This document shows, piece after piece, positions 18,752-20,650 of a stretch of 64,000 bases of DNA. Both the position numbers and the translations under genes were made by a program. A model generated the notes under the pieces. That model was not told the origin of the DNA. It saw only the letters and a program-made list of their open reading frames with translations, and ran no database searches. Position 1 is the stretch's first letter. The number at the start of each line of letters is the position of its first letter. This DNA comes from Bradyrhizobium sp. CCBAU 53351 (GTDB lineage: Bacteria > Pseudomonadota > Alphaproteobacteria > Rhizobiales > Xanthobacteraceae), in contig NZ_CP030059.1 in assembly GCF_015291745.1 (NCBI RefSeq), positions 3,871,501 through 3,935,500 on the forward strand, read 5' to 3'.

Positions 18752-19330
18752 ATGACATCGCCCGAGGATTTTTCACGGCTGCAATCCGCCATGAACCAGA
18801 CGGTCAAGGCGCATTGGAAGGCCTTCCTGTTCGAAGGCATCCTGCTCGCCGTTCTCGGCGTCGCGGCACTGATCCTGCCGCCGCTCGCCAGCCTTGCGAT
18901 CGCGATCTTCCTGGGCTGGATGTTCCTGATCAGCGGCATCGGCGGGCTGATCGTGACCTATTGGGCACGCAGCACGCCGGGCTTCTGGTGGTCGCTGATC
19001 TCCGCTGCGCTCGCCGTGCTCGCCGGCCTGCTGCTGCTGGCCCGGCCGATGCAGGCCGTGCTGACGCTCACCATCGTGGTTGGCGCCTATTTCCTCGCCG
19101 AGGGCGTCGCCACCATCATGTACGCGCTGGAGCACCGCCGCGAGCCGGGCAGCCGCTGGTCGTGGCTGCTGATCTCGGGCCTCATCGACATCGCGATCTC
19201 GTTCATGGTGATCACAGGGCTGCCGAGCTCCGCGGAATGGGCCATCGGCATCCTCGTCGGTATCAATTTGCTGTTCGGCGGCGCCAGCCTGATCGGCATG
19301 GCGATGGCGGCACGCAATAGCAACACCTGA
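18752..19330 (+). CDS. HdeD family membrane protein (DUF308)
   Basis: 192 residues with six membrane helices in three pairs, the DUF308 repeat, typified by FEGILLAVLGVAALILPPLASLA and LGWMFLISGIGGLI. HdeD of enteric bacteria is linked to acid resistance; the rhizobial role is unproven. ATG 18752 (MTSPEDFSRL) is chosen; an upstream start at 18719 lacks a ribosome-binding site. Confidence 0.88.
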   Translation: MTSPEDFSRLQSAMNQTVKAHWKAFLFEGILLAVLGVAALILPPLASLAIAIFLGWMFLISGIGGLIVTYWARSTPGFWWSLISAALAVLAGLLLLARPMQAVLTLTIVVGAYFLAEGVATIMYALEHRREPGSRWSWLLISGLIDIAISFMVITGLPSSAEWAIGILVGINLLFGGASLIGMAMAARNSNT

Positions 19331-19362: not shown

Positions 19363-19391
19363 GTGACAACGTGGCAATGGCGCGCTATATG
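19363..19391 (+). promoter_or_regulatory. promoter of the aroG leader
   Basis: GTGACA (19363-19368, five of six to TTGACA), 17 bases, TATATG (19386-19391). The predicted start falls at 19397-19399, that is on the A of the leader-peptide ATG, so the message would be leaderless. Confidence 0.6.
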
Positions 19392-19398
19392 GCCCGGC

Positions 19399-19479
19399 AT
19401 GATCACCGTCGCCACCAGCTATTTTTGGTACTTTAGCTACGACAGCTCGCTGGCGGCAGGAGGATCGCGCTCAATCTGA
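19399..19479 (+). CDS. aromatic leader peptide of aroG attenuator
   Basis: 26 residues, MITVATSYFWYFSYDSSLAA then GGSRSI. Seven of residues 8-14 are aromatic or Ser: Tyr-Phe-Trp-Tyr-Phe-Ser-Tyr, an extreme density for all three aromatic amino acids that regulate the pathway. There is no ribosome-binding site, consistent with a leaderless start as is established for TrpL of Sinorhizobium. Its codons overlap the antiterminator arm at 19450-19457, so ribosome position decides the downstream fold. Confidence 0.85.
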   Translation: MITVATSYFWYFSYDSSLAAGGSRSI

Positions 19480-19528
19480 AATATTGCAGCAAACGTCCGA
19501 ACAAGCCGCCAGACCTGGCGGCTTTTTT
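19450..19528 (+). promoter_or_regulatory. transcription attenuator of aroG
   Basis: Terminator stem AAGCCGCCA (19503-19511) / TGGCGGCTT (19516-19524), then TTTT. The left arm GCCGCCAG (19505-19512) can instead pair with CTGGCGGC (19450-19457) inside the leader peptide. A ribosome stalled on the aromatic codons at 19420-19440 leaves 19450-19457 free and prevents termination; one that reaches the stop at 19477 covers it and lets the terminator form. Confidence 0.85.
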
Positions 19529-19564
19529 ATTGGCCGGCAGGTTCGAAACAAACAGGAGCCCGCC

Positions 19565-20650
19565 GTGCTGAGCACGACCGACGATCTTCGCATCCGCGAA
19601 CTGAAAGAACTGAGCACCCCGGACGAGGTGATGCGGGAGGTCCCGCGCACGCTCACCGCCACCCGTGTGGTGATGGCCGCGCGCAACGCCATCCACGCCA
19701 TCCTGAGCAACCAGGACGACCGCCTTCTGGTCGTCGTCGGCCCCTGCTCGGTGCATGATCCCAGGGCCGCGCTCGATTACGCCGAGCGCCTCGCAAAGCT
19801 GCGCGAGGATCTCGCCGATCAGCTCGAGATCGTGATGCGGGTCTATTTCGAGAAGCCGCGCACCACGGTCGGCTGGAAGGGCCTGATCAACGATCCCGAT
19901 CTCGACGGCAGCTTCGACATCAACAAGGGCCTGCGGCTGGCGCGCAACGTGCTGTCGGCGGTGAACAATCTCGGCCTGCCCGCCGGCGCAGAGTTTCTGG
20001 ACATGACGACGCCGCAATACATCGCCGACCTCGTGTCCTGGGCCGCAATCGGTGCACGTACGACCGAGAGCCAGATTCATCGCGAGCTGGCTTCCGGCCT
20101 GTCGTGCCCGGTCGGCTTCAAGAACGGCACCGACGGCAATGTACGGATCGCAGCGGACGCGGTGAAGTCGGCCTCGCATCCGCATCATTTCATGGCCGTG
20201 ACAAAACTCGGCCGCTCGGCGATCGCCTCGACCGCGGGCAACGAGGATTGCCACATCATCCTGCGCGGCGGCAGCAAGCCGAACTACGACGCGGCAAGCG
20301 TCGCAGCGGCCTGCAACGAGCTGGCGAAATCGGGCGTCGCACCGCTGGTGATGGTGGATGCGAGCCACGCCAATTCGAGCAAGAAGCCGGAGAACCAGCC
20401 GTTGGTCATGGCCGACATTGCCGGCCAGATCGCCGGCGGTGAGAACCGCATCATGGGCGTGATGATCGAGAGCAATCTCGTTGCCGGCCGCCAGGACGTC
20501 GTGCCGGGCAAGCCGCTCGTCTACGGCCAGAGCATCACCGACGGCTGCATCGACTGGCCGACCACGGCGACTGTCCTCGAGCAACTCGCCGACGCGGTCG
20601 AGGTCCGCCGCAACACCCGCCGCGCCGGATTGCACGAGCGGTCGGCGTAA
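19565..20650 (+). CDS. aroG: 3-deoxy-7-phosphoheptulonate synthase (DAHP synthase, type I)
   Basis: 361 residues from GTG 19565 (CAGGAG six bases upstream). It condenses phosphoenolpyruvate and erythrose 4-phosphate, the first step to Phe, Tyr and Trp. Type I motifs are visible: VVGPCSVHD (near 59), the metal-binding VDASHANSSKKPENQ, and GVMIESNL near the C-terminus, at the length usual for enterobacterial AroF/G/H-type enzymes. Regulation by the upstream attenuator fits a pathway entry enzyme. The frame opens at TTG 19484 but that extension lies within the attenuator. Confidence 0.96.
   Translation: MLSTTDDLRIRELKELSTPDEVMREVPRTLTATRVVMAARNAIHAILSNQDDRLLVVVGPCSVHDPRAALDYAERLAKLREDLADQLEIVMRVYFEKPRTTVGWKGLINDPDLDGSFDINKGLRLARNVLSAVNNLGLPAGAEFLDMTTPQYIADLVSWAAIGARTTESQIHRELASGLSCPVGFKNGTDGNVRIAADAVKSASHPHHFMAVTKLGRSAIASTAGNEDCHIILRGGSKPNYDAASVAAACNELAKSGVAPLVMVDASHANSSKKPENQPLVMADIAGQIAGGENRIMGVMIESNLVAGRQDVVPGKPLVYGQSITDGCIDWPTTATVLEQLADAVEVRRNTRRAGLHERSA

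Follow-up and report, generated by a model that had tools for sequence, protein, structure and literature searches.

The aroG gene in the 64-kb stretch of DNA analysed here (the window) is most probably controlled by a classical ribosome-mediated transcription attenuator, a reading to which we assign a probability of about 0.88. A short leader open reading frame (ORF) rich in aromatic codons lies between the promoter and the gene, together with RNA strands that can pair in two mutually exclusive ways and an intrinsic terminator. A preliminary description of this DNA had proposed such a device, and the leader, strands, terminator, T-run and promoter were all found where it had placed them. Judging by the relatives, the attenuator is conserved and very probably functional. 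The product of aroG, DAHP synthase, sets the carbon flow into all aromatic amino acids.

Organisation of the aroG locus

Along the + strand, the window contains in this order a DUF308 gene (ending at 19330), the promoter, a 26-codon ORF, the intrinsic terminator and aroG. The individual features are the following:

19363-19391, + strand: promoter, with -35 box GTGACA (19363-19368), 17-nt spacer and -10 box TATATG (19386-19391); from sequence and relatives
19399-19479, + strand: leader peptide ORF, 26 codons, MITVATSYFWYFSYDSSLAAGGSRSI, stop TGA at 19477-19479; kept by relatives
19408-19419, + strand: strand 1, probable protector of ambiguous register; from fold and duplex search, less well supported than the other strands
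19420-19434, + strand: control codons UAU UUU UGG UAC UUU (Tyr8-Phe9-Trp10-Tyr11-Phe12); from sequence, relatives and codon analysis
19450-19457, + strand: strand 2, CTGGCGGC, left arm of the antiterminator, within leader codons 18-20; from pairing, folds and relatives
19460-19502, + strand: inner stems of the long antiterminator hairpin, as predicted by folding
19505-19512, + strand: strand 3, GCCGCCAG, common to antiterminator and terminator; from pairing and relatives
19503-19528, + strand: intrinsic terminator, 9-bp stem (19503-19524) and T-run (19523-19528); from folds and terminator search
19516-19524, + strand: strand 4, TGGCGGCTT, right arm of the terminator stem; from folds and terminator search
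19554-19558, + strand: Shine-Dalgarno sequence AGGAG of aroG; from sequence
19565-20650, + strand: aroG, type I DAHP synthase, GTG start; PF00793, TIGR00034 (aroFGH)

The aroG product matches PF00793 with an E-value of 2.6e-91 and also TIGR00034. By its sequence, the 8.34-Mb host genome groups with Bradyrhizobium, and its aroG is 96% identical to those of B. forestalis, B. iriomotense and B. betae. The same genome encodes a type II DAHP synthase (PF01474; L140, G000:C1:2891907-2893220) and the attenuated enzyme is therefore one of at least two isozymes. No aromatic short ORF was found on the strand of the type II gene in the 4.3 kb scanned around it. In a scan of the host genome with the covariance model R1 described below, the aroG leader was the sole strong match (E 3e-40, the next match being at 3e-4).

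Two longer frames were considered and rejected. An in-frame extension of aroG from TTG 19484 would run through the terminator; it was discarded because the frame is open in the window but of variable length in relatives. A longer leader starting in the same frame at GTG 19363 was discarded because this GTG sits on the -35 box.

The aromatic residues of the leader are Tyr8 to Phe12 and, further on, Tyr14. The preliminary description had all three aromatic amino acids within seven residues, which is correct for Tyr8 to Tyr14, while the motif it quoted (SYFWYFSY) comprises eight. Short ORFs (10-44 aa) with at least five F/Y/W per eight residues occur once on each strand of the 64-kb window, and of the two only the ORF at 19399 is followed by a terminator at a distance of no more than 90 nt. 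When the window was block-shuffled ten times, each shuffle yielded between 0 and 2 aromatic short ORFs, none of them with a terminator. The combination of leader and terminator is beyond chance.

Mutually exclusive RNA structures

Strand 2 (CTGGCGGC) and the downstream TGGCGGCT both pair with strand 3 (GCCGCCAG), so that antiterminator and terminator exclude each other. This agrees with the earlier proposal that 19505-19512 pairs either within the leader or just downstream, and the alternative is supported across the relatives. The leader up to the T-run is predicted to fold as protector and terminator, and the segment from the end of the control codons to strand 3 is predicted to fold as antiterminator. 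The corresponding fold z-scores are -3.3 and -2.3, with -3.1 for the terminator segment, -1.5 for the leader ORF alone and -0.9 for strand 2 to the T-run. Strand 1 can be drawn in two registers: in register A, that of the minimum-energy fold, GUCGCCA (19408-19414) pairs with UGGCGGC (19451-19457), and in register B GCCACCAGC (19411-19419) pairs with GCTGGCGGC (19449-19457) with one mismatch.

The predicted inner stems of the antiterminator include GGA 19462-19464 with TCC 19496-19498 as well as GCTCAAT 19469-19475 with ATTG and AGC at 19483-19490. A sequence resembling a Shine-Dalgarno motif, GGAGGA, lies inside the leader at 19459-19464; it consists of two GGA glycine codons after strand 2, kept in 34 and in all 35 of the distinct leaders, respectively. 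This motif may be due in part to the inner antiterminator stem.

When the RNA is considered up to strand 3 and without a ribosome, the antiterminator is favoured at equilibrium (P 0.98), and the protector (1:2) hairpin is not favoured at equilibrium until strand 4 has been made. Default termination would therefore have to rest on kinetics, with strand 1 pairing first. The leader stop codon lies about 20 nt beyond strand 2, and a ribosome waiting there would thus leave strand 2 uncovered. This is unlike the trp attenuator of E. coli, in which the ribosome resting at the leader stop masks strand 2.

Conservation of the leader before aroG

A total of 139 aroG upstream regions was compared, made up of 80 named loci (the best 80 of 591 relatives) and two further sets of 30 and 29, with the locus of the window itself among the 30. 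Leaders were flagged by at least four aromatics in eight residues and a start more than 120 nt upstream. This flagged 123 of the 139 regions; a terminator followed in 122 of the 123, and one spurious case (L062) was dropped. Leader and terminator are thus found together in 121 of 139 upstream regions (109 of the 121 distinct), which correspond to 62 of the 80 named loci and all 59 others. Regions in which no leader was flagged include records of Pantoea, Erwinia, Enterovibrio, Photobacterium, Methylotenera, Thauera and Azoarcus. For enterobacteria and Vibrionales, passages of PMC5343134 describe TyrR and TrpR as known or predicted regulators of DAHP synthase genes.

The covariance search in other Rhizobiales that had been suggested gave a second measure of conservation. 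Model R1, built from 26 alphaproteobacterial sequences, was used to scan 397 genomes of the order; AroG itself was looked for in a set of 397 genomes chosen by the same procedure. A match lay 28-60 nt upstream, on the same strand, of 59 of 59 aroG genes found, at least four of these loci (G000, G064, G074, G082) having been in the training set. Six of the 65 best matches (E down to 2.7e-8) lie elsewhere than at an intact aroG: one is a changed Bradyrhizobium copy, four weaker ones belong to family f41 and one has no evident meaning. Many weak matches in the order cover just the terminator end of the model.

The changed copy is a second leader with terminator (MITVATRRFWHFTHRNSLAAGGSC) in the Bradyrhizobium genome G410 (L180:305-830), followed by an apparent remnant of an aroG start that runs into a short unrelated ORF; the intact aroG of this genome, with its own leader, is on a different contig. 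In the three matches of family f41 that were read, a Tyr/Phe leader (MIKTAATFVYFYYVTSIPAAA and similar) and a GCCGCC terminator stand directly before tyrS, at L182:232-401, on the minus strand of L181 at about 1842-1673 and at L183:226-394; the fourth match of the family is L184. The gene was identified by TIGR00234 for L182 and by the likeness of the first codons for L181 and L183. Going by its sequence, this leader is likely to be an attenuator of tyrosyl-tRNA synthetase.

The pairings recur together with the leader. In 88 of 121 loci, the complementarity of strand 2 within the leader to strand 3 reaches p<=0.05 against mononucleotide shuffles; the match of strand 1 to strand 2 exceeds shuffles in 73 of 121, and the GGCGG/CCGCC/GGCGG cores are found in 118 of 121. 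Beside the core, strands 2/3/4 read T/A/T in 81 of the 106 distinct loci and change in step to C/G/C (3 loci) or A/T/A (2 loci), and the strand 2-3 pair is broken at this place in 15 of 106; because best pairing was the criterion for choosing the strand-2 core, these counts are biased towards pairing. Over the 26 alphaproteobacterial sequences, the antiterminator cells are paired in 86.5% (at most 56.8% with slid partners), and those of terminator and protector in 81.7% (at most 59.4% slid), which splits into 96.6% for the terminator and 66.8% for the protector when only register B of strand 1 is counted. Covariation measures for these 26 sequences were not above shuffles, as the GGCGG/CCGCC/GGCGG cores hardly vary. 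RNAalifold shows the terminator alone in the same set, as is expected of a terminator and an antiterminator that exclude each other. All 39 distinct segments from Bradyrhizobium and Mesorhizobium were predicted, by folding without a shuffled control, to form a long antiterminator hairpin with at least 6 inner pairs.

These observations bear on an alternative explanation, in which a plain intergenic terminator stands beside a chance ORF and nothing is regulated. The position downstream of the DUF308 gene would suit such a terminator, but we give this explanation next to no credence in view of the recurrence of leader, terminator and pairings before aroG in alphaproteobacteria, betaproteobacteria and Xanthomonadales, the constant promoter spacing in the alphaproteobacteria and the absence of the combination from the ten shuffles.

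Promoter geometry and probable leaderless transcription

The -10 box carries a GC extension (GCTATA, 19384-19389) and is separated by 7 nt from the A of the leader ATG. A generic sigma-70 scan did not score the promoter in the window; the same promoter is kept in the relatives. The gap between the best promoter pair and the leader start codon is 6-8 nt in 61 of 61 Bradyrhizobium loci and in 16 of 17 other alphaproteobacteria, the remaining locus having 10 nt. Among the Xanthomonadales, 6 of 8 have a gap of 7-8 nt; among the beta/other loci, only 5 of 35 have one of 5-9 nt, a range into which shuffled sequence falls in 11-13% (the scoring weights were chosen with the sequences already in view). 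This geometry strongly suggests that transcription of the aroG leader starts at the A of its ATG or directly beside it and yields a leaderless mRNA, which lends support to the start site of the preliminary description. According to passages of PMC4842269, 320 start sites in B. japonicum lie 0-10 nt upstream of start codons, and mutation of one B. japonicum promoter with a GCTATA-type -10 box showed that the GC extension matters. Most Burkholderia and Massilia-type leaders have the promoter 20-40 nt upstream instead (e.g. L034, L018), implying that leadered and leaderless forms of one attenuator coexist.

Control codons and the amino acids likely to be sensed

All three aromatic amino acids are present in the leaders of 61 of 61 Bradyrhizobium loci, 16 of 17 other alphaproteobacteria, 8 of 8 Xanthomonadales and 19 of 36 beta/other loci. 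The W-Y-F core is fixed in all 61 Bradyrhizobium loci. This constancy would also fit a nascent peptide that, like TnaC, arrests the ribosome in place of slow decoding. We regard such a trigger as very improbable: outside the alphaproteobacteria, the number and order of the aromatics vary freely (FYFYFYGF in L015, FFTGYFYF in L018, FYFWYYGF in L032), which fits codons and not an arrest peptide.

The place of the codons fits control by slow decoding. With the ribosome edge placed 13 nt beyond the A site, a stall calculation for the window leader gives the antiterminator a P of 1.00 at codons 8-13, a marginal 0.75 at Tyr14 and 0.37 at Asp15, and later stalls abolish it; as codons 2-7 also give P 1.00, the calculation sets a downstream limit only. 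Stalls with an antiterminator P of at least 0.5 comprise 283 of 283 aromatic codons in Bradyrhizobium, where the corresponding figure for other codons is 344 of 943, and 72 of 92 aromatic codons in other alphaproteobacteria, 51 of 54 in Xanthomonadales and 208 of 244 in beta/other leaders.

Codon choice in the 35 distinct Bradyrhizobium leaders is unusual for phenylalanine. UUU makes up 64 of 74 leader Phe codons, compared with 1 of 76 in 15 Bradyrhizobium aroG genes (UUC 75 of 76). UAU encodes Tyr in 40 of 86 cases in these leaders and in 25 of 74 in the aroG genes. Seven genes of the window use UUU for 9 of 95 Phe and UAU for 39 of 70 Tyr; since UAU is common there, the Phe bias is the only one that departs from the genome. 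Leaders of the other groups also use UUU often (23/31, 16/18 and 113/154). Within the 35 leaders, U is the third base of 88 of 89 F/Y codons at positions 8, 9 and 12 and of 0 of 36 at positions 4 and 14; position 11 is divided between UAC (19/35) and UAU (16/35), and the GC3 of the remaining codons is 82%. Because of the common ancestry of the leaders, these codon counts do not represent independent cases, and some control-codon bases could also be favoured by RNA structure. UUU and UUC are read by one and the same tRNA. Passages of PMC1183508 present theory and earlier experiments on other attenuators in which synonymous control-codon choice sets sensitivity; the theory there concerns isoacceptors.

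It is possible, if rather doubtful, that the attenuator senses mainly phenylalanine and that the Tyr and Trp codons add little. Such a bias is known from the nearest case, aroR of Corynebacterium glutamicum with its Phe-Tyr-Phe run, where, according to passages of PMC11802643, limitation of Phe is effective and that of Tyr is without effect. The Bradyrhizobium codon bias, strong for Phe and weak for Tyr, and the 17 of 36 beta/other leaders that lack Trp point the same way. Against this, Trp10 and Tyr11 are invariant in the 35 distinct Bradyrhizobium leaders, and all three aromatics occur in 85 of 86 alphaproteobacterial and Xanthomonadales leaders. A pan-aromatic response to Phe, Tyr and Trp is likely on the basis of these sequences. 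The earlier proposal that the three are sensed together is supported insofar as the leader contains all three, and the aroR precedent speaks against it.

Codons 13-26 of the leader vary little in Bradyrhizobium. This could be taken for a sign that the terminated leader RNA or the leader peptide also acts in trans like rnTrpL and peTrpL of Sinorhizobium, with which the locus shares the layout of a leaderless small ORF and a terminator (passages of PMC7298713). Strand 2 and the predicted antiterminator hairpin nevertheless account for much of these codons, and variable sites are spread as 9, 11 and 10 over codon positions 1, 2 and 3 in the 35 distinct leaders; positions 1 and 2 being as variable as 3, there is no sign of selection for the leader peptide beyond the control codons. 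A role in trans is thus unlikely.

A model for attenuation of aroG

The sequence layout, its conservation and the mutual exclusivity of the pairings are established; the start, the stalling, the termination and the amino acids sensed in the following model are what we infer for the attenuator of aroG. RNA polymerase would start at the leader ATG, and a ribosome would begin on the 5' end of the leaderless mRNA. When charged tRNA for Tyr, Phe or Trp is short, the ribosome would stall at codons 8-12, covering strand 1 at least partly and leaving strand 2 free. Free strand 2 could then pair with strand 3, once this is made, to form the long antiterminator hairpin, and aroG would be transcribed. 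When the control codons are read fast, strand 2 would be under the ribosome or paired with strand 1; strands 3 and 4 would then pair, and transcription would stop in the T-run with an RNA of about 130 nt. As the three aromatics share one stall window, any single shortage should open aroG, which amounts to OR logic.

If this is true, one leader RNA reads all three end products without a protein sensor. In E. coli, the DAHP synthase isozyme genes are controlled largely by the TyrR and TrpR proteins (in part from passages of PMC11802643 and PMC5343134). The device ranges over Bradyrhizobium, Mesorhizobium and Devosia, with variant forms in Xanthomonas and Burkholderia-type bacteria. A wider proposal can be made, to which we give even odds when all its parts are taken jointly: one attenuator family may control entry into the shikimate pathway across alphaproteobacteria, betaproteobacteria and Xanthomonadales; in the sampled alphaproteobacteria and 6 of 8 Xanthomonadales it would be a leaderless OR gate with three inputs, Phe, Tyr and Trp; in Bradyrhizobium, codons ending in U inside the stall window (8, 9, 12) and in C outside it (4, 14) would tune slow decoding codon by codon; and a Tyr/Phe relative would govern tyrS in another family of the order. 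Multi-input attenuation on a leaderless mRNA could easily be tested with the aroG leader, whose position-dependent codon choice makes the effect of synonymous codons on attenuator sensitivity directly testable.

Comparison with known attenuators

The trp and pheA attenuators of E. coli share the four-strand logic and the spacing from control codons to strand 2 with the aroG leader, but differ from it in having a leadered mRNA and one amino acid each. The ilvGMEDA leader likewise combines codons for several end products, in this case of the branched-chain pathway. At gathering score, Rfam contains no leader family that matches in the window (only a tRNA was found), and for 20 of the 139 loci it returned only a glycine riboswitch on the opposite strand of L061. 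No leader-peptide attenuator of this aroG was found in the papers examined, and PMC4833913 and PMC2965389 contain no passage on aroG.

The closest alphaproteobacterial system is trpL/trpE(G) of Sinorhizobium meliloti (rnTrpL, peTrpL), in which the mRNA also starts at the leader ATG and a terminator alternates with an antiterminator; it differs in having Trp codons only and in controlling trpE(G) (passages of PMC10117765 and PMC7298713). The Bradyrhizobium counterpart of trpL, MSTAVAPARLWWRTS, has no aromatic mix, unlike the aroG leader (same sources). On a DAHP synthase gene, a leader-peptide attenuator is described for aroR-aroF of C. glutamicum, which belongs to another phylum and whose Phe-Tyr-Phe run, as quoted in passages of PMC11802643 and PMC4046766, is without Trp. 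Attenuation of DAHP synthase is therefore not new as such. Within the Pseudomonadata, Table 7 of PMC1173090 (from the Merino database) lists putative attenuators in front of a DAHP synthase operon in Vibrio parahaemolyticus and V. vulnificus, which differs from the aroG locus in including tyrA. A predicted uORF attenuator, uORFC-13-1, lies upstream of aroF, a DAHP synthase gene, in Acholeplasma, again in another phylum, and has at least one Phe codon and a ribosome binding site (passages of PMC8632094). Precedents thus exist both for leaderless attenuation, in S. meliloti trpL, and for attenuation of DAHP synthase, in C. glutamicum and in the predictions for Acholeplasma and Vibrio.
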